Positions 15,693 to 48,409 of a DNA stretch of 64,000 nt are shown piece by piece. Below the pieces are notes generated by a model. That model was not told the origin of the DNA. It saw only the letters and a list, made by a program, of their open reading frames with translations, and searched no databases. The stretch is from Hericium rajendrae (taxonomy: Eukaryota > Basidiomycota > Agaricomycetes > Russulales > Hericiaceae): contig CM065886.1 in the NCBI GenBank assembly GCA_033439255.1, positions 1,054,001 through 1,118,000 of the forward strand. Direction: 5' to 3'. The translations under genes were made by a program, and so were the position numbers. Each line of letters begins with the position of its first letter. Positions within the stretch are counted from its first letter, which is position 1.

Positions 15693-16585
15693 ATGTCCGA
15701 TCTCTATCTCCTGCTACGCCCTGTCCGCGATATCCTGGACCAGTGGCTGGAAACACGCGATCCAGTCCACCCCTTCACCGACCACACGTTTGACAAGGCA
15801 GATTATGTGTTCTCCAACAAGGAGAACTATGATTTCAAGAAAGTGAATGAAATGGGGCCGGTCGTAAAGTTCTCAGCGCGGGTGGAAGCCGTGCCAGGCT
15901 TGGAATTCCATCCGACGAAGCTCACAATTGTGCGTCGCCTCAGCAACTCCGAGGCGGAGGACAACATCGTCTTCGAAGTGAAGTGGGAAGGCGCTACCCG
16001 TGTCCTTAAAGTGGTATGCCGTCCTTCTACTTAGCCGCCTCGCGACGTTTATCTTAGCCGTGTTACTAGAATCGACAAACCGTCGACGATGAACTGGATG
16101 GTGAAGACCGGCACCTGACCGAGCTCAATACGTACAATCATTACCTTCAGAGTGGACTGTACACTACGGGATTGGGTGTCGTGCCGCACCCGTACGGCTA
16201 TGTCCACATCTGGGGCCGCCAGCATGCGGGCTGGGCGGCGCACAGGGAGCACTGGCCGCACGACTCGTGGCTGAAGCAATTCACCAATCCTGCAGAGTAT
16301 CCGCGTGGCATTCTACTGGAGCATATTCCGGACGTGAGACTGCCTGTGAAGCAGTTCACAGTCCAGAACATATACGACTTGTTGGACACCCTTGCGAAGG
16401 TTCACGCTGCAGGCGTTGTGCATAGAGATTTGAAGGCCCGAAACATGCTGTGGGACGGCGCACGGTTTGTCATCATCGACTTCGAGAGGGCGGTGCTTTT
16501 CGAAGAGGACGAGCTCATCGAGAAGGCTGGGACCACGCCGGACCTGCACGATTTGTGGAGAAGCTTGGTGCTCCACAAATGGTAG
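15693..16585 (+). CDS. Small protein-kinase-like protein, array copy D, canonical catalytic loop
   Basis: Two exons (15,693-16,013 and 16,070-16,585), 278 residues. It has the intact classical loop HRDLKARNMLWDG (HRDxKxxN), the lysine motif VFEVKWEGATRVLKV and DFE (VIIDFERA). Family blocks are GYVHIWGRQH, TNPAEYPRGILLEHIPDV and QFTVQNIYDLLDTLAKVHAAG. As in the other copies only about 30 residues follow the metal motif, so the substrate-binding lobe is minimal. It is the copy most likely to be catalytically competent and is perhaps closest to the ancestral form. Confidence 0.8.
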
Positions 16586-16884
16586 ACGGTGGTGGTCGGC
16601 GTGGTCGGCGCGGAACATGAGGCATATAGGTAGTAGGTAGAATCGAGGTCGAAGCTGTAATCGGCGGTGACTGCTTGAGATACTTATTGTTCTTCCTTCC
16701 GCTGCCCATACCCTCTCCGTCATGCATGAATCTGGCTTGCGCTTCAGGGTTTTCGTGCGCGATTCCACTCGTATCATCGGCTACTGACCTATCGCATCTA
16801 TTCCTAGGCACTGTTCTTGTCACTCGTGGCTTCGCATCCATGTGTCGCCACACGCAGCTAGCCTGCATCGACAACTTGACCGCT

Positions 16885-17010
16885 GACCATCATGTCCGGC
16901 CTCCACCGACTGAAGAAAGATATGCAATCCAATTTACCCTTCGCATGCTTCCCGTGCCGCCCACTCCCTACATCCAATTTTGTGGGTTTCGCCGGTGACG
17001 GCGTCTACTT
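16885..17010 (+). pseudogene. Possible start-only remnant of a fifth kinase-like copy
   Basis: The context ACCATCATGTCCGGCCTCCA closely matches the starts of copies A-D (MSGLHRL versus MSDLYxL), and the preceding 40 bp faintly resemble the promoter-proximal block. Similarity fades after about 10 codons and no kinase motif follows. The array appears to end here, close to the left edge of the CpG-free island. Confidence 0.35.
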
Positions 17011-17218
17011 CATCAGTGTCGTGCATCACGCCAGCCATCGTATTTGCCTTCCTGCTACATGCGGCCGCGCGCAAGCTTCACATGCTGGACTTTCATCTAA
17101 CTTTCATCCGACAGGGCCTATGATGGGCAGGCAACTCAACATGAGCTTCGACGGGCATCTTGACTCGTTAAATAATGGTCTGTACGTATTACACATAGTG
17201 GAGGGGTCGTCCGAAGTG

Positions 17219-19092
17219 CATAAATTAAATGTCCATGTCAAATATCTGATGTGTAAATTAGTATCTGTAGTATTCTGGCAACAAAATCAACAGCATACCA
17301 TAAACTGCTATCAGGCTTGTGAGCTTTGACAGAGTTGGCCATCTCAATGTCAACTCCATCTAAGGCCCTTACACTATAAGACTCAGAATTCACTGAAAAC
17401 CTCTCTCTGCCTGTGACATGACTGTCAGAAGATTCAAACTGGATGATGTAACCTGTTGTAAGGATATTGGAGGACTCCACACTGGGATCACCAATGTTTT
17501 GCAGGTGATTTCTTGAATTTAGCATTGCCAAGCAGCTGTTGACATACACTAACAATAGAAATTTAATATGTGAGCATTTTAGCAAATGAAGAAGAACTTA
17601 CAATGGACAGTGAAAAATTCTATAGCCATAGCCCAAATATGAGCTGGAAAACAGATGAGCTGATGTTTAGAATGATTAGTAAGATCAGCTAGTTGGCAAC
17701 TTGAAAAAAATCATACTACTATAATTTGGACAAGAGAAAAGATTCTAAAAATTAACACATAAGTTTGAGATATAATGATCAGAAGTTCAAGTCTGAAACT
17801 CACGTTGATAAGAAAAATCTATTTACTGCATAAATCATCAAAGTCTGAAACAATTTGCTTGATCTGTTTAGAGATATTTGATATGTAACATTACATTCAA
17901 AAAAGTATAAAACTCACCCAGCATATTGTAACTGAGCACCATGCAACAAAAGACATAATGAAAGCACAGTCACAATATCTGCAGCAACTCTTGTAGCAAG
18001 TATTGGCACTACTGAATTGAACTAATAGAAATATCAATCACTATATAAAAGAGAATATATAGTAAGATCATACTGCAATATTGCCAATGTTTGAAATCTT
18101 CCATTCTCCAAATCTAAAGATTCTGCTTAGTCAATTCTTCAAGAGTTTATTATACTGGCTTACTCTCGAACACTTGTTACTGAGAATAAAGTTAGTAATA
18201 GTACATCAATAAAGGATTATAGTTATGTACCAATTCCAAATGCTAGATTATCTCTTTTGTAAGCTTATTATAAATGACATAAACTATAAATTCTTACCAA
18301 TATGCATCAGGATCAAAAGCACCTATATGCTAATATATCAGACATAGTCTTAATATAGAAGATACAACATACAAGTGCAATTGTGACAAACTTTCCCCAT
18401 TTATTTTTTGCCACTAGTAGAATATTCAAACTATTATATAAGCTAGAATTCAGATTTACTTACAATGATAAATCATCCTAGTGTAGAATCTAGAAGGTGA
18501 TCATATTTTAATAGTATATAAAGGTCAAAATCTCTCAAAAGTAAACAATTAGACTTACAGTTGTACTAGAGAACAGGTGACAACCTGTCAATAAGTATTA
18601 GCAATAATCTAGATTCCTAGATCATAAGAGCTGTGAGACTTACTCCAACACCAGAGACTATCTGTACAAGTAGAGATTTTAGTAATAAAGAAAATGGAGG
18701 CAATGCAATTGTATACAAAAAGTGACCTAGTGAGTCAAGAAGGAGTAAGTGCTATCATAGCAAAATGGCAAGATATACATACCAGTCTCCTCCTATCAAC
18801 AACAAGGGATCATGATAGGTAAGGATCTAGAGAGAAATCAGAGTGTAAATGGAGAATTCAGTCAAATTACAGAATTACATACTGTATAATAGTACACTGT
18901 GTGGCAGCCTGTTTATTTAAGGAGTCAAGAAAAGCATTGGTTGAAGAAAGAGAATATGCTTACAGAAGACTGCTTGCACCATTGACATCCAGCTAATTTG
19001 CACATTGTCAGGATATACTGAAAACATAAATAACAATACCAACAATAGTGCAACAACCTAATATATGATTCAGATGATATTGCAAAAGTTAC
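17219..19092. other. Sharply bounded AT-rich, CpG-free island
   Basis: I scanned every line: in about 1,874 bp only two CpG dinucleotides occur (near 17,802 and 18,167), while the flanks carry many within tens of bases (GGGTCGTCCG ends at about 17,215; CTCGACTG...ACCGCTTACCG begins at 19,093). The tract is rich in A and T. It covers nearly all of DUF6534 copy D1 except its first exons. Where aligned by eye with paralogues, CpG sites appear as TG, CA or other changes (for example AGCGTTGC in copy D2 is AGCATTGC here). Confidence 0.85.
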
Positions 19093-19430
19093 TCGACTGT
19101 GAGCTACCGCTTACCGTTATCTTTATCAAGCGGTGATCTTTCGGGTAATTTATGTAGTACAGGTACATCTATACCGCGCGATCAACCTAACGCCGATGCG
19201 TGCATCTCGGAAAGATGAGTTACTTACCTGCAGAACCGACACTCCGTAGAGAACAAGCATCACCATACAGCATATCAGCATGGCGCCTAGCAATCAACAC
19301 GTCAGACATGGACATGACCCTGGTGATCCGCTGTCCCGGTGAACGCACCTTCATTTTGACGGAACAAGCTGTCTGATATCGGCGAAGGCCTGTCAAGCGG
19401 GAGTGACGTGGGTTCCGGAGCGGATGGCAT
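17238..19430 (-). CDS. DUF6534-type seven-helix membrane protein, copy D1 (AT-rich, status unclear)
   Basis: Exon 1 starts at 19,430 (MPSAPEPTSLPLDRPSPISDSLFRQNE). The family exons follow on the minus strand: TM1 with YGVSVLQ (about 19,235), YLYYINYPKDHRLIKI (about 19,150), ISWMSMVQAVF (about 18,990), ILTYHDPLLLIGGDW (about 18,800), VVPILATRVAADIVTVLSLCLLLHG (about 17,950, in pieces), MIYAVNRFFLST (about 17,840) and VYVNSCLAMLNSRNHL (about 17,540). The last exon is open to 17,238. The VNSxLAxLNSR motif is the hallmark of DUF6534 proteins, fungal plasma-membrane proteins of unknown role. From the third exon on the copy is AT-rich and almost free of CpG, yet the recognisable motifs stay readable. 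It may be methylated, mutated and silent, or still functional; intron borders in the middle are uncertain. Confidence 0.6.
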
Positions 19431-20303
19431 GCGGCAAGAGCGCGATGTGCGGAGGGAGGGATTGTGGAGTCTACAGCGTACGCGGCGTCCGAGGTTCCTA
19501 TATGAGCAACAGCTCCATTGCTCCCATTTGCTACGAGAAGAGAAGGGTTGCGACCAGCATAGCAGCTGCCGTGTCCTTGCAAGCCTCGATCAGGCGTGTT
19601 CGCCATGGGAAGAGCGGCAGGAGCACGTCGCGGTCTCCTGATGATCATTGACCTGTCAACTTATGTTAGCCTTCTGTTCTTCCTGGCCCACCTTACGAGA
19701 CGACGGGACGACGATGCGGCCATCAGAAATAGCACGAGTCTCTCACATGTCGCGGATCACCATTGTTATACACCTGCGAAATCTCTGTGGGCGCGGAATC
19801 GGCTTGTCGCCGATGCTGTATGGTGGCTGTTGTCCGTGTGGGGAATGGAAGTCGTTCTATTCCTGTTCTCATCAGCATGGATGGTGTCGAAGCCGGCGTT
19901 CGCTCTTAGGCGCCTTCACCTGTAACAGGCAACACAACATCCACGGCTTAAAACCTGCAAATGAGAAGCAGTACTGCCGTTATTTAATCAGGTTGGAAAC
20001 GCACGTTGGCGGTCATGGTTTGACACCTGAGTAAGAAATGAATGATGGGCATACATACCAACGATAAGTGGCGATTAAGAGAAAGCCGGCGACTTAGTGA
20101 GCGTCCATTCGGCGGGGATACCGGAAGGTTCCTCCAGCAAGTATGACGGCAGCTGCCTCAGCTGTAGCAAAGCGGAAGCGAGACGAAAGACATGCATTCC
20201 TGCAATAAATAGCAAAGTGAAAGAAGCGAATGAACACAGCAGAACAGCACGACCGCGAACGTCAAGAAAATGAGCAAAGTGTCCACGCAGACCGCGCACA
20301 CGG
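19431..20303. other. Upstream region of D1, no gene recognised
   Basis: Normal base composition. Frames here are short and domain-free. It ends at the 3' end of BIR1 (minus strand). Confidence 0.4.
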
Positions 20304-27699: not shown

Positions 27700-29924
27700 T
27701 CACACAACTGACGTCTAAATAGCCACGACGTCAACATGAACCGGGAATGTCGTAGTAGAAAAAATACCAAAGTGTTATCTCCCGGCTTCTCCCCTTCGAC
27801 AGACCCGTTTGTCACAATCCTCGCCAAATCTGACGTCGTCGTAGTGTTCGGATCGACGTTCGTCGAAGATTGGCTCCTGGCTGTGGTGAAAGCTTGGGGA
27901 TGTTCGAACTGGATGGCATGGTCTGCGCTCAGGAAGTCAGAGGGCTCCAAGCCGGTTCGGTCTCTGCTGCCAATGCTACGCAGGTAGTTGCGCGAATTTA
28001 GCGTTGCTAAGCAACTGTTGACATACACTGGAAAGAGAAATAAGAGTGGCAAAATTTGTTACGGCTGACGAAGACTCACGATGGGCGCTGATGAAATCCA
28101 CGAGCATAGGCCAAATCGCCGCACTATTATGGGCCGAGGAAGCGACCTGATTATCCACTCTCAGCCAGGGAAGAAGCATTTCAAATGTGAGGAAGTGTAC
28201 CGTGATCATTTGAACAAGGACAATCGACCTGAGCGATTTCAGGAGCGAAATCCAGTACACAAGAACTAAATACGCACGTGGTCAGAAGAAACCTATTAAC
28301 GGAGAAAACGATCAAGGTTTGCATGAGTCTCCCTGTCCTGATTTAAACGTCAGATTGCAACACTAAACTAAAAATATGGTAGAGCTCACCTAGAGCCGTG
28401 TGGTCGCGTGCTATGCAACAAAGTGCAAAGAGAGGTTGCAGTCACCAAATCTGAAGCAAGCCTTGTGGCACACATGGGCACCATCGAACCAACCTTGCGG
28501 ACAAGTCAGGTTCAACGAGAACGAGAGATCTGACGAAATCCTACAGCGATGCTGGAGAGTTTCATGATGTCCCAACCACGGAATCTGTCATTTGCACTTG
28601 GTGAGGAATTGAATGATTTAAGAATCAAAGACTGACCCGCCGATGACCATCACTGCAGTGATGTACTTAGTAAACGGTCGTTCACGTAGTCTGCTATTGA
28701 GTCACGTACCAATTAAAAAAGCTAATTTATAGTTTCTTGTGTCAGATTATAATTACTGTCGGTGAGCAACACACTCTTACCAACTTGCAGCAAGGTCAAC
28801 AAGATCTATATCGCGGATGAATTAGTTTTGCCCCGAGTACAAAAGAAAACCATAACGTACAAGTACGATTGCCAAGAACCACCGCCACACGCCGTTTGTC
28901 ACTGCGCTCGGACATCAGAACTGCAGCATCCGGCAGAGAACAGGAACACCGACAATGGTGGATCACCCGGTTGTATAAGCTGTAGATGGCAGCATCAGAC
29001 AAGCTCAAGACCAAGCGTCGAATGAACAGTGATACTCACAGCTGTACTAGAACACATATGATAACCTGCCGATGGATGTTATACATCATTCGGATTAGTT
29101 AAGCTGACGCTGGACGTACCCCGAATACAGGGGCGATCTAAGAGGACAGAGGCTCAGAGGCTTCAGTAAAGGGTAGGATGGGAGCAGAAAAAGGATGGGA
29201 CAGAGAAAGTACGTGCATAGAGTGACCTTAACAAGAGAACAGTCATCCCATGATAGATAATATGGCGTCACGGCGAGATGTGCGTACCAGTCTCCTTGTA
29301 TTAACAACAAAGCATCGTGGTAGGTAAGGATCTGAGGACAGATCAAATCATGATCACGTGGTTTCTATTGATGTCTAGGCTTGCGGTGAGACGCACCATA
29401 TAGCGATATACTCCGTGGCATGCTGTCCATTCATGCGGTTAATAAGGAATTTGCAGCGAGGGGGATCGTGCTTACTGAAGATTGCGTGTATTGTGGACAT
29501 GCAGCTGTTTCACATGCCGTCAGGACGGACATAAAATCACAAGCAGCGGGTACCAACAAAAGCACCACGACCTGACTTAGTGGTCAACAAAACTTCAAAC
29601 CAAAACACCTTATCACGACTTACGAGCATTTTTATTGTCCGGCGGTCGTTCCGATAATTCAGGTAGTACAGGTACGTCTGGTCCTGGATTAACTTCATAC
29701 TGCATGCTGCTAAGGGGACGACCTGCCTGCAAGATTGACAACCCATAGATGACAAGCATGAGCATGCAGATTATTAACATGCTGCCTAAAAATCAGCGCG
29801 TTATGAGTACGACCGGAGGGTCGAGTCTAATGATGAGCGCACCGAAGGCTTCACGGAAAGTTCTGTCTGTGAACGGCGTAGGCCTGTCAAGAGGGAAGGA
29901 TGGAGACTCCTGATCTGAAGACAT
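27700..29924 (-). pseudogene. DUF6534-type membrane protein, copy D2, probably broken
   Basis: Starts at 29,924 (MSSDQESPSFPLDRPTPFTD). Family exons in order: YGLSILQ (about 29,745), TYLYYLNYRNDRRTIKML (about 29,660), SCMSTIHAIF (about 29,490), ILTYHDALLLIQGDW (about 29,310), MVPMCATRLASDLVTATSLC (about 28,450), LIVFSVNRFLLTT (about 28,300), IWPMLVDFISAH (about 28,110) and VYVNSCLATLNSRNYL (about 28,010). The end is likely spliced to TSVV-stop at 27,700. In the SCMSTIHAIF exon an in-frame TGA lies three codons upstream of SCM, where copies D1, D3 and D4 read through, so this copy is likely damaged unless the exon starts after it. The intron after YGLSILQ begins GC (CAG-GCAGGT), not GT. It is tail-to-tail with SDR-1. 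Confidence 0.62.
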
Positions 29925-33010: not shown

Positions 33011-33121
33011 CGCCGAAAGTCTCTCTCCGCGAAACTAGTAGTACACCGTGCTGCATGATGCGCCAACGCAGCAGAATTCGATCCGAAGAACGACGAAAAC
33101 CGATTCCGCCCACATTATCGT

Positions 33122-34534
33122 TTACACAGTTGATGTCTAAATGGCCACGACGTCAACATGAGCTGTGGGATGTTGTAATAGAAAAATAGACACCATACCA
33201 CAGCGTTGTCTCCTGGCTTCTCCTCCTCGATACACCCGTCTATCGTGATCCTCACCACATCTGATGCCCCCATAGCATTCAGATCGATGTTCACCGAGGA
33301 CCGGCCCCTGGTTGTGGTGAGAGTTTGGGGGTGTTCGAACTGGATGCCCTGAATTCTGCTCAGGAAGTCGGAGGGCTCCAGGCCAGTCCGGGTTGTGCTG
33401 CCAATGCCACGCAGATAATTGCGTGAATTGAGCATCGCCAAACAGCTGTTGACATACACTGAGAAGAGAAATCGGAGTGAGGATGCTCTATTGCTGAGAT
33501 TTAAAGACCCACAATGCATGCTGATGAAGTCTATGAGCGTGGTCGTAATGTTGCTAGGCGAACAGATGAGCTGCCCATCGCAGAGTTGCTCCGTCAGCGA
33601 ACACTGAGCTGGCACTTTGAATTTGCAAGCGTGATGCGTACCAGTATCATATTCACAAAGACAATTACCCTGCACAATCTCAGCAGCAGCATCTAGCATG
33701 GGAATGAAGATACGTGCGTAGTCAGAAGGAACCTGTTGATAGAGAAGATGACCAAGTTGTGCATCAATCTTCGATTTGATCTATTCGACGGGAATTAGAG
33801 GATATACGGTCAGATGCCAGATGCTGCAGAACTCACGAGCAGGAGACTTGCGGCTGTGCATCATGCAGCAAGATGCACAGAGATAATGCGACCACCAAGT
33901 CTAAAGCAACCCTTGTAGCCATCCCTGGTGCCAATGTCAAATTCTAGTAGACAAGTTATTTCCAATAATCAGGAGACGACTAATAGGATCCTATGGAGAT
34001 GTTGCCGATTTTCGTGATATCCCATTCATGGAATCTGCCATGTGGGCTAAGCAGTGGGGAACGAGACAAGTCCAATGTCGAAGAAAACTGACTCTTCGAC
34101 GACCGACACTACAATAACAAACTCAGTGAAAGAACACTCGATGAAAAGTCTATCCACATACAAATTCCAAATGCTAGATTGTCGGTGGCGACACTTTATG
34201 TCAGAATACATCAAATCTGGCGACCATGCTCTTACCAACTTGCAACACGGTCAACAGCAGCTACATTGTCGAGGAATAAGTAATCATTTGAATGGACAAA
34301 ATATGACATACAAGGACAGTCGTCAAGAACCATCGCCACTTGTTTTTCGTCACTATGTGAGTAAGAAGATATCGGGGTTAAAACATCTGGCCGAAAGGCA
34401 GAGCTTGCACTGACAGTGATAAATCATCCGCATGTAGAATCTGAAAATTTTCATAAAGAAATCAGTCGGGTTCAATGGGTAAGAAAGAGCAAGGGCACGG
34501 ATACTTGCAGCTGGACAAGAAGACAGATCACGAC
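33122..34534 (-). pseudogene. DUF6534-type membrane protein D3, 3' part, split by a retroelement
   Basis: C-terminal half of copy D3: MAPGMATRVALDLVVALSLC (about 33,910), LVIFSINRFLLTT (about 33,750), LIDFISMHCG (about 33,520), VYVNSCLAMLNSRNYL (about 33,430) and a tail ending after a last intron at 33,122 (TSTV-stop). The left flank of the inserted Ty3 element is at 34,534. The 5' part of the gene resumes at 41,632. The gene therefore spanned about 2.2 kb before insertion, like its neighbours. Confidence 0.72.
34530..34534 (+). repeat. Target-site duplication ACGAC, left
   Basis: Five bases directly before the 5' LTR, repeated at 41,632-41,636 directly after the 3' LTR. Confidence 0.85.
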
Positions 34535-34957
34535 TGTCACGGATCGCTCCATTTCTCTCCGCCTTCTTCTCTGCCATCAAGGCATCGCGTCAGTCATGTG
34601 CTCCAGCAGCCCCATCACATGTTCACTTCCTCACATGACCTGGGGCTATCCTTCACCCATGCCCTTGTTCCCCTTTGGGACATCCTATTGTTCTCCCTCC
34701 CATTGTTCTCCTTTTGGCCACCATTGTTCTCACTCTATTGTTCGACCCGTTATGGTGTTCATTGTTCTTTTCCCATTGTCGTCCCAGTACTTATAGGCTC
34801 CCTGTCGCTCGCCTATTTCCCTAGATTGTCCATTTCGTCTGTACCGTACTGTACCTCCAATACAGGTCACTGCGCTGCTAGTCGCTCTCTGCTCTCTCGC
34901 TCCCATCATCGCTGGTGACTTGGGTGGTTCTCTGCTGTCTACGACCGAGTCTTGACA
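34535..34957 (+). repeat. 5' LTR
   Basis: 423 bp beginning TGTCACGG and ending TCTTGACA. A TATA-like ACTTATAGG lies at about 34,789, with a probable transcript start about 32 bp further on near 34,823. Confidence 0.9.
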
Positions 34958-34969: not shown

Positions 34970-37900
34970 CTCATACACCCGCCTCACCTCCCTACTATCG
35001 CCCATCATACCTTTCTTCTTTGAACCCTTCACCGCCGACATCTTCACCGAATCCCGACATCCATTCCATCAACCTCATCTCCCCTTTCCCATCGCCAACA
35101 CCATCGAGGGCAGTGCACTCATCCCCCTCCTCCGCTACTGTGCTGTGAAGCGTTGGGAAGCCGAAGGAGTTTGGTTTCGATTGAGGTCGTGGAAACCACG
35201 TGCAGGTGCTATCTCCATTGCCTTATACGTTCGAATTCGAGTTTCCTTTGACGTCGACTTGCAAGAATTCACGTTCGGTGCTTCGGATATCGCTTACCAC
35301 TGTCGCCAACCCAACCGAGGATCCCCTGCAAGTATCCTACCATCGACCTCATTCCCCTTTTGCACACTAGGTCTTTTCACCCCCGAACCCTCGCCTGAGC
35401 CTGTGTGGGCCAGAGAACGCCTCGGCCACCGATTCCTCAGAAACCCGTACTCGGACCCCCTGTACCCTCGTGCTCTTGGTCGTCGCCCAGTCGCGGCTGA
35501 CTTCTTCTAGACCTCACCATTGATCCCACCGACCCCGTTTCCAGACCACAGAACCATACCCACTCGGCGTCTTTGCCTCGCTCGACGAATACTTCATCTA
35601 CACCCTTTCTGGCATCGTTCGAATAGACTTCGTCACTCCGGACGAGGACGACGACGATCCCGCACAGTGGTACTTCGCTGATCGTGACGACCAGGCAGAC
35701 CTCGAGCTTAACGACTTCGACGTCGCAGCTACAGAACACCGCCGCCAACACCCCGCTACCCCGCCACTTCCCACTGTCGCCCTTCCTAGTGCAGATTCTC
35801 CCCCTGCTCGCACCACCCCACTTGTTGTTCCCCCAGGTATTACCTTCAACCCGGTAACCAACAACTACTACGCATACCGCTCCGACACCAATCGGCTTGT
35901 AGTCAGTTGGAGACCTAGCCTCGTAGAAGAAAGTGACCTGTGGTTTTGGCAGGCCAGTACCCTCTTCTTAACCACTGCAGAACTCGCACTCTCTCAAGCA
36001 GTTATAGAGAATCTCGCTCAGCAACAAGCTACCCGCCTCGATACCCTTCGGGCCCCACTACCACCACCTGTTTCGACGCCTACCCCAGTACCAGTCCCCT
36101 CACCTGCTCCACCCGTTGCCGCTGTTGCATCGACATCCACCGTCAACGTCAAACCAACCATTGCCACAGCTCCCCCTGTTCCGCCGCCCGACGACATGTC
36201 CAACCCCGAGATCGGCGTCAAACCTGCTCCCTTTGAGGGAGATCGTTCCAAGTCCAAGGAATTCCAGCTGCGTATTCGCTTATTCCTTCGTGCCAACTCC
36301 GTCAGGTATAAAGAGGATACCGCCCAGATCTCCCTCTTCCTCGACCTCTGCCAGGGCCCTATTGCCGGCCAGTGGGCCACCCAGCGTGTCGAGGAGATCC
36401 TTGAGGATGACGATCTTGTGGCTGCAGCCACATCTCCAGCCCATGTCCCTCGCTATGCCAACCTCGCTGCCCTTCGAACTCGCTTCAATTTGGACTTCTC
36501 CCCCTTGACGACTCCAAGGACGCTCCCATGCCATCCAGACCCTCCAGATGGGCACGCGCCCGGTAGTCGACTACATCACCGAGTTCGAGTCCTTCGCTCC
36601 TCGCACCGGCTACAACGATGTGGCCCTGATCGATTGGTTCCTGCATGGCCTCAACAGCGCCTTGCGAGATGATTGCCAGCGCAGCTACCCCACGCCCACC
36701 ACCCTGGTTGAGTGGAAAGCAAGGGCCCGGGACAGGAATGCTGCCTACCTCATGCGCACCCGGTTCCAGAGTCCCCGCCCTACAACTGGGCGCACCCCGG
36801 TGAGCACTCGCTCCCCTCAGTCCACATCTACTGGCCGATCCCGCACAGTTGCTGCTACAGGTGCCCCACTGCCCAAACTCTCGGAGCCTGACCGTGAGCG
36901 TCTCAGGCGTGAGGGTGGTTGCTTCCGCTGCCGCCAGAAGGGCCATGGCTTCCGCGACTGCCCCCTCAATGCCGACTCCAACCCCCGTGCCCCAATCCCT
37001 CGTGTCCGAGCGCTAGAAACCGGCTCTGCCCCGGGAGTAGCTCCAGAAGATGCAGCCGCTGCCCTCGCTGTCCCCGCCATCAACAGGTCCATCGCCGACT
37101 TATCGTCGCAGTTGAAGGACTTGAGTGAGGAAGAAAGGGAAGAGGCAAAAGCTGCATTAAAGGATATGGTTGAGGGTTTTTAAAGCGCCCCCCGGTCACG
37201 TCGTCCGTGGGTGGCAAGAAACATTTCTTTGATCCGTCGAATCGCTTCTCTGTACTATCCGACCCCTGTGAGCAATCGTATCCATCGTCTTTGCGCATGT
37301 CCGCTATCACGCCCAACCGTCAGACACCGTCCATTACGCTCCAGGCCAAGATTATCACTACCCCGATCAAGAAACAAATCGACGCTGAGGCACTTCTCGA
37401 TAGTGGTGCAGAAGGCATCATTATGCACCCCGAGTTTGCCAAGAAACACCAGTTCCCCCTCAAGAAACTCCCTAAACCCTTTCCCGTTCGCAATGTGGAC
37501 AACTCCGAAAACATCATGGGCTGGGTCCGCTATTCAGTCAACCAGAACATCCGCATTTACGCCAAGGACTCGACGTCCTTCCATGAGGAGACAGCTGAGT
37601 TCTATCTCGTTGATATTGGTGACTACGACATTATCCTTGGGACCGATTGGTTACAGGAACACAACCCTGAAATTGATTGGGTCTCTCGTCGTGTCGACAT
37701 GACTCGCTGCCCTCCCTCTTGCACTCTGAATAAACCCCCAGTCAAGAACCTGTCCACTCGCACTGAACGCCGCCACTCAGCCCCTCGTCCACCAGTCCTC
37801 AGCACTGCTGCAGTACTGCTCCCCCCACCTTGCCCCCTCCATTGCTCCCACTGCCCCCACCATTTGTTGCTGCTCCCCTTCCCAAATACGTGATCCCCGC

Positions 37901-40900
37901 TCGCCGAGTCCAAGGTGTCCGCCTTCGCCGCATCCACCTGTCCAAAGTCCCTGCACGTCTATTCACTGAGGACGATGACCCCCGACCTAATGTCGATGAC
38001 GACTGGGTTGAAGAGGGCCTTCGTCTAGCTGGTGTTCTCCCTGACTGGGACACACCACCCCCACCAGACGACGACCCCGACTATCAACACACCATCCGTA
38101 TCCGTCGCTCTTTCACCAATGCTCAGAAACTGGCGGAGCGCGTGGCCACTCGTGTTGCAGAGAAGTCCTTTGCTGAGATGGTTCCCCCTCAGTATCAGGA
38201 TTTCCAACCCGTCTTCGACGAGGAATCCTCCCATCGCCTCCCCGAACGTCGCCCTTGGGATCACGCCATTGACCTGAAAGATGGTTTTGAACCCCGTTCA
38301 TGCAAGGTCTATCCCATGGCTCCTACCGAGCAGGAAGACCTTGATTCATTCCTTGATGACCAGGTCAAGAAAGGCTACATCCGTCCTTCCAAATCCCCTA
38401 TGGCGAGTCCCTTCTTCTTTATCAAGAAAAAAGATGGAAAACTACGCCCCGTCCAGGACTATCGCACCCTCAACAAAGGCACCATCAAGAATGAATATCC
38501 CCTGCCCCTCATCTCTGAACTCGTTGACAAGCTCAAGGGTGCCAAAGTCTTCTCCAAGATGGACGTTCGTTGGGGTTACAACAACGTTCGCATCAAGGAG
38601 GGCGACGAATGGAAAGCCGCCTTCAAAACCAACCGCGGTCTCTTTGAACCCCTGGTGATGTTTTTTGGTCTTACCAACTCCCCTGCCACGTTCCAAGGAA
38701 TGATGAATGAACTTTTCAAGGATCTCATCGACACGGGCAAAGTCGTCATCTACATGGACGATATCCTCATTTTCACCGAAACCCTCGAAGAACATCGCGA
38801 CCTTGTGCGCAAGGTCCTCCAACGCCTCCAGGACAATGACCTCTTCCTCAAACCAGAGAAGTGCTCGTTCGAGCAGCACTCAGTTGAGTTCCTCGGTCTC
38901 ATCGTCTCCCATAACACGCTCGCCATGGACCCCGTCAAGGTTGCAGGCATCGCTGAATGGCCTGCCCCTCGTAACGTCAAGGACGTCCAGTCCTTTGTTG
39001 GCTTTGGCAACTTCTATCGACGCTTTATCCAGGACTTCTCCAAAGTTGCTCGTCCCATGTTTGACCTTACCAAGAAAGACCATCCTTGGGCCTGGTCTGC
39101 TGAATGTCAACATGCCTTTGAGGCTCTTAAAGCTGCGTTCACCTCGTCCCCAGTCCTTATCATGCCTGACCCGTCCAAACCCTACCTGGTTGAGGTCGAT
39201 GCCTCAGACTATGCCACAGGAGGTATCCTATCCCAGCGCGGGGAGGCCGAGCAATGGCACCCTGTTGCTTACATCTCCAAGGCCTTCACCGCCCCCGAAC
39301 GCAACTATGACATCTATGACAAGGAACTCCTGGCCATCATCCGCGCCCTCGAAGCCTGGCGCCACTACCTGGAAGGTTCTCCCCATACTGTGGAGATCTG
39401 GACCGACCATAAGAACCTGGAATACTTCAAGTCTGCCCAAAAGCTGAGTCGTCGTCAGGCTCGCTGGGCTCTCTTCCTCACTCGTTTCGACTTCACCCTG
39501 ATCCACAAACCCGGTATTCATCACCGGCCAGATGCCATGTCGAGACGACCTGACCATAGAGAGGGGGTGGACGACGACAACTCCGATCGTGTCCTCCTCG
39601 ACCCCAAGTACTTCCAGATCCGTGCTACACGTCCAGCTGCTGTCAAGTCCATTGGCAATGCTGATCTTCGCCAACGCATTCGCAATGCCAAGACCAAGGA
39701 CATTGAGGTTGTTCAAGCCCTTGATGTGATCCTGAACAATGGTCCTCGTTCCCTCGTCAAGAACCTCCAAGAATGGAACTACGAGGATGGCCTCATCCTC
39801 TTTCGTGGCAAAGTCTACATCCCTGCTGACAAGGACCTTCGTCGGGACATCGTCAAGCTGCATCATGACACCCCCATGGCTGGTCACCCAGGACGCTACA
39901 AGACCTATGAGCTCCTCAGTCGCAACTACTGGTGGCCCGGTATGTCTGTCTTCGTTCGTGATTATGTTGATGGCTGTGCTACCTGCCAGGCCACCAAGGT
40001 TCAAAATCACCGCCCTCATGTTGAAACAATTCCCAATGCCATCCCTACCCGTCCCTTCCAAGACATTACCTCGGACTTCATCGTCAAACTCCCCGAATGC
40101 CAAGGCTATGACTCCATCAATGTGGTCGTCGACCGTTTTACAAAGCATGTCTCCTTCACTCCTTGTAAAGAGACCATTACCAGTGATGGCACAGTCGACA
40201 TCCTTTTTGACAGGATTTATCGGAACTACGGCCTCTGGGAACGCCTCATCTCTGATCGTGGCCCACAGTATGCAGGCAAAGTCATGCGTGGTGTCTTCGA
40301 CAAACTTGGTATCAAGTCCTCCCTCAGCACCGCCTATCATCCACAGACCGACGGCGAGTCAGAACGCGTCAATCAAGAACTCGAGCAGTTCCTTCGTACC
40401 TTCTGCAACTACCGTCAGGATGATTGGGTCCAATGGCTCCCTTATGCTGAGTTCTCGCACAACCACCGTATCCACAGCGCCACTAACCGAGCTCCATTTG
40501 AAATGCTCCTCGGCTATATTCCCACTGCCATCCCCACTGTCAACCCCACATCGTCTACACCTGCCGTCGAGGATCGTTTCCATCACCTCGAACAACTTCG
40601 CACTGAGGTCCAGGCCAGCCTTCAAACAGCTGCTGATCTCATGAAGCGCAACAACCAGGACCATATGCACAACACCATCCACTTCCAGGTTGGTGACAAG
40701 GTCTGGCTCGATGGCAAGAACATCAAAACCACGCGACCCAAAGCTAAGCTTGCTGATCGACGCCTGGGACCTTTCGAAATCACTGACGTCCTGGGCCCAG
40801 TCTCTTATCGACTGAAGCTACCGCCCACCTGGCGTATCCACCCGGTGTTCCACACATCCCTGTTGTCCCCTTACAAGGAAACCGACGCTCATGGTCCCAA

Positions 40901-41195
40901 CTTCCCTGCACCACCACCTGACCTTGTGGAGGGCGAGGAAGAGTACGAAGTTGAGTCTGTCCTCGATGCTCGTCTCACCCGGAACAAACGCGGCATTGAA
41001 TATCTCGTCAAATGGGCAGGCTACCCTGATTCGGAAAATCAGTGGCTTTCACGTACCTCCCTTTCCAATGCCCATGGTGCAATCACCGACTTCTACACCC
41101 GCCATCCGCATGCACTCAAGGCTCCCAATCTTCGTGGACTCATCTACCTCGACCCCGTCCATGCTCATCACGCACTCCAGGCGAAAGTGCATCTT

Positions 41196-41205
41196 AGAGA
41201 GGGGG
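41196..41205 (+). other. Polypurine tract
   Basis: AGAGAGGGGG lies a few bases before the 3' LTR, at the usual place for plus-strand priming in LTR elements. Confidence 0.6.
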
Positions 41206-41208
41206 TGA

Positions 41209-41631
41209 TGTCACGGATCGCTCCATTTCTCTCCGCCTTCTTCTCTGCCATCAAGGCATCGCGTCAGTCATGTGCTCCAGCAGCCCCATCACATGTTCAC
41301 TTCCTCACATGACCTGGGGCTATCCTTCACCCATGCCCTTGTTCCCCTTTGGGACATCCTATTGTTCTCCCTCCCATTGTTCTCCTTTTGGCCACCATTG
41401 TTCTCACTCTATTGTTCGACCCGTTATGGTGTTCATTGTTCTTTTCCCATTGTCGTCCCAGTACTTATAGGCTCCCTGTCGCTCGCCTATTTCCCTAGAT
41501 TGTCCATTTCGTCTGTACCGTACTGTACCTCCAATACAGGTCACTGCGCTGCTAGTCGCTCTCTGCTCTCTCGCTCCCATCATCGCTGGTGACTTGGGTG
41601 GTTCTCTGCTGTCTACGACCGAGTCTTGACA
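41209..41631 (+). repeat. 3' LTR
   Basis: 423 bp, same start, end and length as the 5' LTR; no difference was seen on side-by-side reading. Confidence 0.9.
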
Positions 41632-41636
41632 ACGAC
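41632..41636 (+). repeat. Target-site duplication ACGAC, right
   Basis: Repeat of 34,530-34,534. The host sequence then continues CTGCCAAACATC, matching the ACCTGCCGATGG of copy D2 at the same intragenic position. Confidence 0.85.
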
Positions 41637-42460
41637 CTGCCAAACATCATTGATGACATAGACTTTTTACATCCAGCTAGACCTACCCCAGTAGCAGTAG
41701 CCATCTACATGAACAGAGGCTTGAATAAAGGGCAGAATGAGAGAAATAGAAGGTACGTGCATAAAGAGACCTATTCAGAGCGATAGTTATCAAGTGATTC
41801 ACTATGGCAGAAAATCGGCGAAGTATGCATACCATTGGCCACCGATCAACAGCAAAGGATTGCCATAAGAAAGTATCTGAGAGTATAATAATTTATGAAA
41901 ATGCAATATCATCGAAATTAGATGCCACCAGACCCACCAAATAGTGATATGTACTGAGACATACTGTTCATTTAGAGTCAATATGTATTGTGATCGAAGT
42001 TCAAGAACATGCTTACAGAAGATTGTCTGCACCGTTGACGTGCAGCTATTGTGCATATCTTTACCATAGACAGACGAGCATGAGTAATGATACTCACAAT
42101 ACCACCATGACCTGATTTAGCATTAAGCAAAATGTCGTATGAATCTGCTATTCACTGCCTACCAGAATTTTTATTGTCCGGCGATCCTTCGGGTAATTCA
42201 GGTAGTACAGGTATGTCTTTGCGCCGGGGTTGGCCTCACGGTACATGGTCCATAGGTGACCTGACCTCTTACCTGTAAGACTGACAGTCCGTAGAGAACA
42301 AGTATGACCATGCAGAATATTAGTGCGCCACCTAAGGCAGATCACTTCTATGAGCACAGTGATGAGTTCCTATTTTAATGAACGCACCGAACAATTTGCG
42401 GAAAAGGCTGTCTGGAAACGGCGTAGGTCTGTCGAGAGGGAGTGACGGAGGGGAAGACAT
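41637..42460 (-). pseudogene. DUF6534-type membrane protein D3, 5' part
   Basis: N-terminal half of copy D3. The start is at 42,460 (MSSPPSLPLDRPTPFPDSLF), followed by a TM1 exon with CMVILVLYGLSVLQ (about 42,300; a normal GT donor follows), TYLYYLNYPKDRRTIKIL (about 42,190), SCTSTVQTIF (about 42,040) and LSYGNPLLLIGGQW (about 41,860). The insertion junction lies downstream of the LLLIGGQW exon. Before the insertion this copy showed no obvious stop in these exons, so the element may be what inactivated it. Confidence 0.72.
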
Positions 42461-46246: not shown

Positions 46247-48409
46247 TCAGTCTGCGATCTGCGAATAGCAAGATGGGCATCATACCGCGAGATTGTCATT
46301 AGGCTTTCGACCATTGATAGACCCGTCCGTCTCCGTCCTCATTCCATCCGATATTCGTGTAGCATTCAGCCCGATGTTCATCAATGATCTGCCTGTCGTG
46401 CGACTGCCAGGATGTGCGAACTCTATGCCGGCACGGCCGGTAGCCAGGAAGTCGGAGGGCCCCATACCAGTCGGACTACCGTTGCCGATGCCTCGCACGT
46501 AGTTGCGTGAATTAAGCATTGCCAAGCAGCTGTTGACATACACTGAGAAGATAATCAGAATCGAAACTATTCTACGGCTGAGAATGCTCACGATGAGCGC
46601 TCACGTAGTCTATGAGCACGGGCCAAATGCTACGGCGCGAACAGATGAGCTGGTGAGCGAGCCGCTCAGTCAGGCAGCCTTAAGATAACAGCTTGGTAGA
46701 AAGCCCACTGCTGTCATTTGAACGATGACGACGAGCCTGGAACGTCAGACTCAGAAGTGATACCTGGCAGACAATCAGAACGCTTACGTCGTCAAAAAAA
46801 ATCTGTTGATAGAGTAGATGATCAAGGTGTGTACCATTTTGCTTGATCTGTGCGAAAGAATCAGAGGACGCAGGGTCGGATTCAACGACTGCGAGACGCA
46901 CCCAACATTAGATTGCGGCCGCATACTATGTAATAGGACGCAAAGAGATAATGCAGTCACTGAATCTGATGCGACCCTGGCAGCGCACAAAGGCACCATC
47001 GTATAGATCTTGTAGAGTTCAGTTTAAACCAGCAGAGCATTGATGAGACCCTACGGTAATGTTCGCGAGTTTGAAAACATCCCATTCGTGGACTCTACCA
47101 TGACGTTGAGCGTAGAATGAGATTCGAAGACGTCAAAAATCTGACCCTTTAACGACCATCTCTGCAGTAATATAATTAGTGAAAGTCAACGAGGCACCCT
47201 ATTGTCTCGCATACCAATTCCGAAAGCTAGATTGTGGTTTGTTTTATTTTTGTTCTGGGTTATGACGACCAAAGTTGAACATGCTCTTACCAACTTGAAG
47301 CAAAAGTAGAACAACCTAAGTCGTTGATGAATTAGTTTTGAGCGGAGCGCGCAAAATGCGACATACAAGAAGAATTGTCAGAAACCACCGCCACTTGCCC
47401 TTCGTCACTGCTCGAGCGTCAAGGATGCTGTATTCAAGAAAATTGTAGATGCACCGACAGAGGTAGATCATCCGTGTGTAGAACCTAAATGATTTAGCGA
47501 TTGAGTCACCTTCTGAACGGCAAAGCAACGCTCATAAGACTTACATCTGGACTAGAAAACAGACAGAGACCTGTCATGAGCATTGATGAGTATGAAGCGT
47601 CGTTTCGCTGATGATAAGCCCACCCCAACACTGGGGGCCACCTGTACAAGCACAAACTTGAGTGAAGGAACGAATAGGAACAGCGAATAGTACGTGCAAA
47701 CAGCGACCTAGTCAAGACAGCAGACATTGAATGAAAGCTAGCATGGCAGGACTATACAATATACATACCAATCTCCTCCTATCAACAACAGAGGGTCGTG
47801 GTAAGTGAGGATCTATGCAAGTAAAAATGTAATAAGGCGGTCTTCATCTCGAGGTCCTGGCTTGTAGCGAGCATACCATATAATAATACACACTGTAGCA
47901 TGCTGTCCGTGCAGACAGCAGTCAACGCAAGCTCTAACTGGAGCGAACAAGCCTGCTCACCAAGAATTGCATGCAGCGTTGACATGAAACTGGTTGTCGC
48001 CGCATCAGAGTGGACAGAAAATAACGAGCGGCCGTACTAACAATAGCACCGTAACCTACTTTATGGTTAATCAAACTATTGCAAAGAGCCCCTTCGGTCT
48101 CCACATACCAGCATTTTCATCGCCCGGCGATCATCCGGGTAATTTAAGTAGTATAAGTATACCTTCGAAGCTCTGCAGGTCAACATTGGCGCACAGTCTA
48201 ATCATGATCACTTGCCTGCAAGACAGACACGCCGTAGGAGGCAGCCATGAACATGCAGCTTATTAACCCTCCGCCTAATAATCAACAACTTGAATACAGC
48301 ATCGAATATTCATTTAGGAAAGCGCACCATAGGTTTGGCGGAAGAGCTTGTCTGGAACCGGTGTAGGTCTGTCGAGCGGGAAAGGCAGAGAGTCCTGAGC
48401 TGAAGACAT
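46247..48409 (-). CDS. DUF6534-type seven-helix membrane protein, copy D4
   Basis: Start at 48,409 (MSSAQDSLPFPLDRPTPVPD). Family exons in order: GGGLISCMFMAASYGVSVLQ (about 48,230; followed by a GC donor, CAG-GCAAGT), YLYYLNYPDDRRAMKML (about 48,130), SFMSTLHAIL (about 47,970), ILTYHDPLLLIGGDW (about 47,790), MVPLCAARVASDSVTALSLC (about 46,970), LIIYSINRFFLT (about 46,820), IWPVLIDYVSAH (about 46,600) and VYVNSCLAMLNSRNYV (about 46,530). The tail ends in NLA-IAD-stop at 46,247 if a last short intron is used, or unspliced at 46,280. It is an integral membrane protein, probably of the plasma membrane; the role of DUF6534 is unknown. No clear lesion was seen, so this is the best candidate for a working copy within the modules. 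Confidence 0.68.

Follow-up and report, generated by a model that had tools for sequence, protein, structure and literature searches.

A DUF6534-type gene with a CpG-poor body

The window analyzed here (64,000 nucleotides from Hericium rajendrae, or G000:C9:1054001-1118000 in our coordinates for the assembly) contains several copies of a multi-copy gene family. One of these copies, D1, has a gene body that is almost free of CpG. The D1 gene model is on the minus strand (17238..19286) and has 20 exons and 19 introns. We read it by hand from an alignment with the paralogues in the window and in clusters on contigs C8, C9, and C14, along with spliced alignments; the upstream exon with the start codon was not identified. 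D1 adjoins a protein-kinase-like gene with normal CpG (15693-16585 on the plus strand; Pkinase E 1.1e-7). The window also includes an open Ty3/gypsy-type Pol reading frame of 1,181 amino acids (37767-41309 on the plus strand) with reverse transcriptase, RNase H, integrase, and a chromodomain, which was not called as a CpG-poor tract.

The first two exons of the model (exon 1, 19228..19286; exon 2, 19115..19168) lie outside the CpG-poor tract and have normal CpG. Exon 3 (19044..19057, corrected by hand from 19040-19057; its donor is GTTGGT) is the first exon within the tract. It is followed, on the same strand, by exons 4 (18964..18992), 5 (18883..18908), 6 (18783..18826), 7 (18717..18726), 8 (18644..18661), 9 (18559..18584), 10 (18464..18489), 11 (18373..18413), 12 (18298..18322), 13 (18231..18242), 14 (18164..18179), 15 (18074..18113), 16 (17918..18021), 17 (17804..17863), 18 (17717..17744), and 19 (17602..17659). 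Exon 20 (17238..17548) ends with the stop codon TGA at 17238-17240. In this model, exons range from 10 to 311 bases and introns from 50 to 69 bases, the reading frame is open across all 20 exons to the TGA, and all 19 introns have GT and AG at their ends.

The main support for the exon model is that the paralogues have the same splice signals at the same in-tract positions: across 12 paralogues, the acceptor is AG in 215 of 216 alignment cells and the donor is GT in 195 of 204, and the other donors are GC at exon 7. Conserved GC-AG introns are a feature of the family, as the donor is GC at exon 1 in 11 of the 12 paralogues and at exon 7 in 9 of the 12; D1 has GT at both. A spliced alignment with a paralogue's protein gave the same 19 introns, which is not an independent test because the query protein was cut with the same boundaries. 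We also ran an independent spliced alignment with a protein from Mycena (29% identical), which was the single, distant match in a protein search for orthologues of D1. With this query, 18 introns were placed, of which 10 coincide with those of the model; the others differ from it in the middle of the gene, where similarity is weak, and at the 3' end. Neither query met a stop codon within D1.

The open reading frame of D1's last exon matches DUF6534 (PF20152) weakly (18.2 bits, below the Pfam cut-off of 28.2). A paralogue that is 60% identical to D1 (A39, in L039, which overlaps L015) scores 31.3, which is above the cut-off, and by homology to it D1 is a predicted member of the DUF6534 family of membrane proteins. 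In PMC12842992, DUF6534 proteins are proposed to be a new class of GPCRs and are described as enriched in Agaricomycotina. We rejected the idea that D1 is a foreign insert or a piece of mitochondrial DNA, as it aligns over its full length, splice site by splice site, with 12 paralogues.

Extent and edges of the tract

The CpG-depleted, AT-rich tract (17213..19093, assigned to neither strand) covers 1,881 bp, contains 2 CpG, and has a GC content of 0.33, versus 0.52 for the whole window. Its own composition predicts 51 CpG (the probability of 2 or fewer is 9e-20), and the rate in the rest of the window predicts 135. Among 2,000 random sequences with the tract's composition, the lowest count was 29. 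The ratio of observed to expected CpG (CpG o/e) is 0.04 in the tract and 1.02 in the window, and the corresponding ratio for TG+CA is 1.34 versus 1.12. These two ratios were a check put forward along with the original prediction, which had described a stretch at 17219-19092 with two CpG, strong AT enrichment, and sharp borders; apart from a slightly different exact span, that description holds. The tract was called by a two-state segmenter, which called no tracts in 1.24 Mb of control sequence from an order-1 Markov model.

The CpG positions across the region are ...17208, 17212, 17803, 18167, 19094, 19108..., so the window's three longest CpG-free gaps (927, 591, and 364 bp) are all inside the tract; the next longest gap in the window is 155 bp. 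In 60-bp bins, the number of CpG at the left edge goes 6, 5, 2, 3, and then 0, and at the right edge it goes from 0 to 5, 7, 2, and 3. GC content changes stepwise along with CpG at both edges (from 0.47 to 0.28 on the left and from 0.30 to 0.43 to 0.52 on the right), and on the right the GC step is slightly less sharp than the CpG step.

In the direction of transcription, the first 21 bases of intron 2 still lie outside the tract, and at its other end it continues for 25 bp after the stop codon. Thus, as originally proposed, it corresponds to the body of one family member whose first exons are normal. This footprint, read from the letters alone, fits the gene model with its 5' exons spared. 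One of the two surviving CpGs (17803..17804) is in the splice donor of exon 17 (C|GTGAGT). The other (18167..18168) is the sole exonic CpG left in the tract: it is in a CGA arginine codon of exon 14, where a change from C to T would give a stop codon.

Base changes in D1

To describe the loss, we counted a dinucleotide as a family-consensus CpG if half or more of the other copies have CpG there. None of 33 such exonic sites is kept in D1: 14 are now TG, 8 are CA, and 11 are something else. Loss of CpG with a gain of TG and CA, as seen here, is what the decay of 5-methylcytosine leaves behind, and the originally proposed CpG-directed loss is borne out by the 22 sites that are now TG or CA. Each of the 12 paralogues keeps 12-21 of 25-31 consensus CpGs. 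Within the tract, D1 has 1 CpG in 888 exon bases and none in 932 intron bases; the homologous exons and introns of the 12 paralogues have 34-67 exonic and 31-51 intronic CpG. Just 1 of D1's 8 arginine codons is CGN, versus 5-11 of 11-15 in the paralogues.

The substitution counts leave out D3 and A32 (which are partial or divergent) and the poorly aligned end of exon 20 (column 2345 of the alignment onward). At CpG sites, 18 of 44 underwent transitions, versus 42 of 185 other C and G sites (P 0.02), and any change was seen at 26 of 44 versus 61 of 185 (P 0.002). The excess of transitions at CpG is modest because some ancestral CpGs escape the consensus rule and because changes of other kinds also remove CpGs. 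Outside of CpG, the 42 of 185 sites with C-to-T or G-to-A transitions compare with changes in the reverse direction at 21 of the 327 sites with A or T (P 2e-7). The same bias is visible at synonymous third positions (C to T at 20/37 and G to A at 10/38 versus A to G at 1/20 and T to C at 2/26). The original prediction had set CpG-directed loss against changes spread evenly over all dinucleotides. The changes are indeed uneven, but a real GC-to-AT bias exists outside CpG as well.

Classical RIP prefers CpA. Sorted by the following base, the rates in D1 are 14/85 for CA, 11/43 for CC, 17/57 for CT, and 18/44 for CG, so CpA is the least affected, and six paralogues have changes at 6-16 of 85-89 CpA sites. 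There is no preference for CpA in the tract. Judging from these counts, the pattern in D1 is a total loss of CpG superposed on a weaker general drift towards AT, and not RIP of the CpA type.

Splice sites, reading frame, and substitution rates of D1

All of the splice signals in the tract are kept, with AG at 18 of 18 acceptors and GT at 17 of 17 donors. By rough estimate, with rates taken from the consensus and not from the branch, the chance that none of these 35 splice G's would change at D1's own non-CpG rate is 6e-4, and it falls to 4.5e-5 if we add seven conserved Gln or Trp codons, none of which is now a stop (one Gln and one Trp codon became sense codons). The mean dS from D1 to its paralogues is 1.92, versus 1.01-1.33 for 11 paralogues, whose means include comparisons with D1 (1 of the 11 dS values for D1 was saturated and was dropped). 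The mean dN, calculated in the same way, is slightly raised at 0.35, versus 0.27-0.33. We left A31 out of these estimates and out of the protein tree, since a gap within an exon shifts its frame.

In the tree of 12 family proteins, D1 is placed inside the clade of this genome's own paralogues, with modest support (80/90). It has the longest branch (0.56; the next longest is 0.45), so some relaxation of constraint on D1 is possible. D1 had been predicted to be a targeted repeat that was mutated to completion. With an open frame, AG and GT at every intron, a dN that is slightly raised, and CpA hardly changed, it does not resemble a dead copy, as far as can be judged from the gene model and the alignments.

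Paralogues and copies of the tract

The original prediction named four other copies in the window (D2-D5) but gave no coordinates for them, and we assumed that these are the copies near 27.8, 33.2, 42.2, and 46.3 kb. D2 (27774..29792) and D5 (46292..48281) are both on the minus strand and are CpG-normal (the exons that are homologous to the tract have CpG o/e of 1.00 and 1.07, respectively), which agrees with the prediction that they escaped. D3 (33120-34800) and D4 (41310-42340) fit it less well: they are partial copies in which CpG is mildly low, with CpG o/e of about 0.55-0.92 in 500-bp windows, far less depleted than D1. Silencing of all copies was rejected, since D2 and D5 are CpG-normal.

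Besides the window, we scanned loci amounting to about 0.3 Mb, some of which overlap. Among 24 family loci (L002-L025, some overlapping each other, L031-L040, or the window), none had a CpG-poor tract. We rejected a CpG-poor tract as a family-wide trait for this reason, though a distant DUF6534-type gene (L049) does have one. Among the close paralogues examined, CpG stripping is seen in D1 only. Ten other family or flank loci (L031-L040) gave one case, a 269-bp CpG-free stretch that is cut by the end of the locus (L036). Two of these loci, L035 and L036 (at about 1.94 and 1.80 Mb on C8), encode near-identical family proteins, and neither gene body has a CpG-poor tract; the similarity of their sequences suggests that the pair is probably a recent duplication.

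To find copies of the tract, we searched the 46.8-Mb assembly, which has 19 contigs. Besides itself, the tract matches 21 stretches, all in family loci, at 66-88% identity over 50-284 bases. No near-identical second copy of it was found in the assembly. A similar search recovered copies of another CpG-poor element (L048, described below) at 98-100% and at 76-80% identity, and a close copy of D1 would be expected to turn up as well if the assembly had one. Repeat-based targeting of D1, as first proposed, is therefore left with no near-identical partner in this genome. The left flank (16586-17330) occurs once in the genome. Seven places besides its own match the right flank (19094-20300; five of the seven were fetched), always within query bases 17-315, which is the stretch with exons 1 and 2. 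With such flanks, we rejected a neighboring transposon that spreads methylation onto D1.

CpG-poor tracts elsewhere in the genome

Among ten arbitrary 10-kb loci (L041-L050), four have CpG-poor tracts (L041, L046, L048, and L049). The tract of L041 is in a locus with a match to DUF6570, which we take to go with Helitrons. The tract of L046 is found at full length in one place in the genome, and a 63-bp end of it is also found elsewhere. L048 contains a CpG-poor multi-copy element (L048:7900-9700; G000:C3:1507900-1509700) that occurs, counting itself, in five places with 98-100% identity over 1.8 kb, with further copies at 76-80% identity. From these identities, it seems to be a CpG-stripped sequence that multiplied recently.

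L049 (L049:1026-2088; G000:C4:501026-502088) is the distant DUF6534-type gene; its match to the Pfam model is weak (E 0.075). As in D1, the first exons are CpG-normal and the body is CpG-poor. The reading is continuous in a spliced alignment to P0001, but the starts of two of the tract's introns (GTTATC and GTCTTA) are unusual, so the gene's intactness is only partly shown.

One of five DNA-methylase loci (L026-L030) also has a CpG-poor tract. In this DNMT1-RFD gene (L027), the catalytic exons are CpG-poor over 1,427 bp with sharp edges (L027:1143-2569; G000:C12:757357-758783), and the BAH exons are normal. Of the 19 CpGs that remain in the tract, 18 are exonic (one is at the very edge), at least nine are in CGN arginine codons, and three of those encode part of the QGRRRV motif. 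Identity to a protein from Artomyces is 61% in the tract and 49% outside it. The frame breaks near 840-900 and 1855 (in the gene's sense), and so we do not claim that L027 is intact; the breaks may be assembly errors or recent damage. The tract's edges are inside exons, whereas those of D1 are near the gene's 5' part and the stop codon. The tracts of L049 and L027 each have a single place in this assembly. The genome has two DNMT1-RFD loci, L027 on C12 being the one with frame breaks, and a CpG methyltransferase is thus predicted by sequence.

The BAH part of a methyltransferase from this genome shares 92% identity with a protein from Hericium alpestre, with 18% of the query covered. Among named proteins, the best match to a sulfite reductase gene is from Dentipellis sp. 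(78%), and both results point to Hericium or a close relative (Russulales) as the probable source. The deposited H. alpestre protein (P0123, 693 amino acids) stops at about the end of the BAH exon, ahead of the exons with low CpG in L027; gene prediction may have stumbled over this same AT-rich stretch.

Explanations for the tract

The CpG loss and its borders are plain in the sequence of D1 and absent from the close paralogues examined. To explain them, we propose that D1 is an intact gene under selection that has for a long time been CpG-methylated over a block with sharp borders, reaching from intron 2 to shortly after the stop codon. Our belief in this explanation is evenly balanced by doubt. 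CpG methylation over the body of D1, in cells that pass their DNA to offspring, would be long-lasting and have sharp limits; as methylated C decays to T, dispensable CpGs would mostly become TG or CA; and selection would remove the changes that break splicing or the reading frame. The total loss of CpG, the kept frame and splice sites, and a high dS beside a slightly raised dN together speak for a methylated block in a selected gene. The similar partial-gene tracts in L049 and L027, the failure to find a close second copy of the tract or its flanks, and the two DNMT1-RFD loci also favor it. On the other side are D1's long branch, the reported scarcity of gene-body methylation in fungi, the frame breaks in L027, and an exon model that was read from paralogues, has no start-codon exon, and agrees with the independent alignment at 10 of its 18 introns. 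The simplest form of the explanation is weakened by the drift from C and G to T and A outside CpG (42/185), which CpG methylation alone does not explain. We infer the agent (5-methylcytosine) and the stability of the block from the footprint that they would have left, and D1 is presumed to be expressed.

The main rival is a repeat-directed process, MIP- or RIP-like, that methylated or mutated CpGs in a partial duplicate of the D1 body (for instance one carried by a transposon), whose ends would set the edges of the tract and whose partner would have been lost later. It would account for edges that ignore the exon structure, and CpG-poor tracts do occur in a true repeat (L048) and in the DUF6570-matching locus. 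CpG is also the usual target in basidiomycetes, as described in PMC4352252 and PMC4457147. Yet no second copy of the D1, L049, or L027 tracts was found by searches that did find copies of L048 at 76-80% identity, and a rapid process triggered by repeats should have left stops or broken splice sites, which the D1 model lacks. On balance we consider this rival doubtful, if a serious contender. The earlier idea of a copy killed by RIP has the complete loss of CpG and the GC-to-AT bias to recommend it. It is barely credible for a gene model without damage to splice sites or nonsense codons, with dN slightly raised beside a high dS, with no preference for CpA, and with no duplicate found, let alone one of at least roughly 400 bp with over 80% identity (the figures used for Ganoderma in PMC4457147).

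Alternatively, the sharp edges, one within an intron and one shortly after the stop, with shifts in both GC and CpG, could be the ends of a segment that was acquired from a CpG-poor homologue, in the same or another species, through gene conversion or introgression, with no local methylation on D1. This is improbable, as none of the 24 family loci examined (L002-L025) is a CpG-poor donor and D1 falls, with modest support, inside the clade of its own genome's paralogues; furthermore, such a transfer merely moves the question to the donor. Lower still in our estimation is a general mutational bias towards AT, or weak GC-biased conversion, acting on an unmethylated region. The excess of GC-to-AT changes outside CpG (42/185 versus 21/327 in reverse) speaks for it, but the 2 CpG seen fall far below the 51 that composition predicts and the minimum of 29 among the random sequences. 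As the sole cause of the tract it is excluded, and it may act alongside a process that targets CpG.

Comparison with known systems

Mutation of transposons at CpG is known in Basidiomycota, for example in Microbotryum (PMC4352252) and Ganoderma sinense (PMC4457147). D1 resembles these RIP- or MIP-like systems in the CpG target, the change from CpG to TpG or CpA, and the presence of a DNMT1-type enzyme. Those systems strike repeats, whereas in D1 the target is a gene body for which no close copy turned up and which has no stops or splice damage. With RIP in Ascomycota, D1 shares the C:G to T:A change and a bounded tract. It differs in that CpA is not preferred, no duplicate was found, there are no stops, and the gene is under constraint.

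Gene-body methylation in animals, plants, and a few fungi is like the D1 footprint in that the 5' exons are spared and the body of a readable gene is covered. In contrast, few of the genes examined here show a tract, the edges are not always at the ends of genes (as in L027), and D1 offers a footprint in the sequence. In PMC13297926 and PMC7862722, gene-body methylation is described as largely lost or lacking in most fungi, and the latter names Uncinocarpus reesii and Metarhizium robertsii as fungi that show it. CpG-stripped intact genes in mushrooms did not appear among the top-matching titles in our literature search, which left most subscription journals outside.

A further proposal is that D1 belongs to a set of functional genes whose bodies carry stable, sharp CpG-methylated blocks of 1-2 kb, among them the catalytic exons of a maintenance methyltransferase (DNMT1-RFD) gene. 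Methylation and function would then coexist over evolutionary time. This proposal is speculative and, in our judgement, unlikely. If it is true, then gene-body methylation persists in Agaricomycetes on a subset of genes, perhaps acting back on the methyltransferase itself. As PMC13297926 presents it, fungal CpG methylation is mainly a mark of transposons, and gene-body methylation was perhaps lost due to its mutational cost. D1 looks like a case in which that cost was fully paid on a gene that selection still keeps. If intact genes without copies prove to be methylated in spores, then CpG-poor blocks in genes would allow past methylation to be read from the sequence of a mushroom alone.
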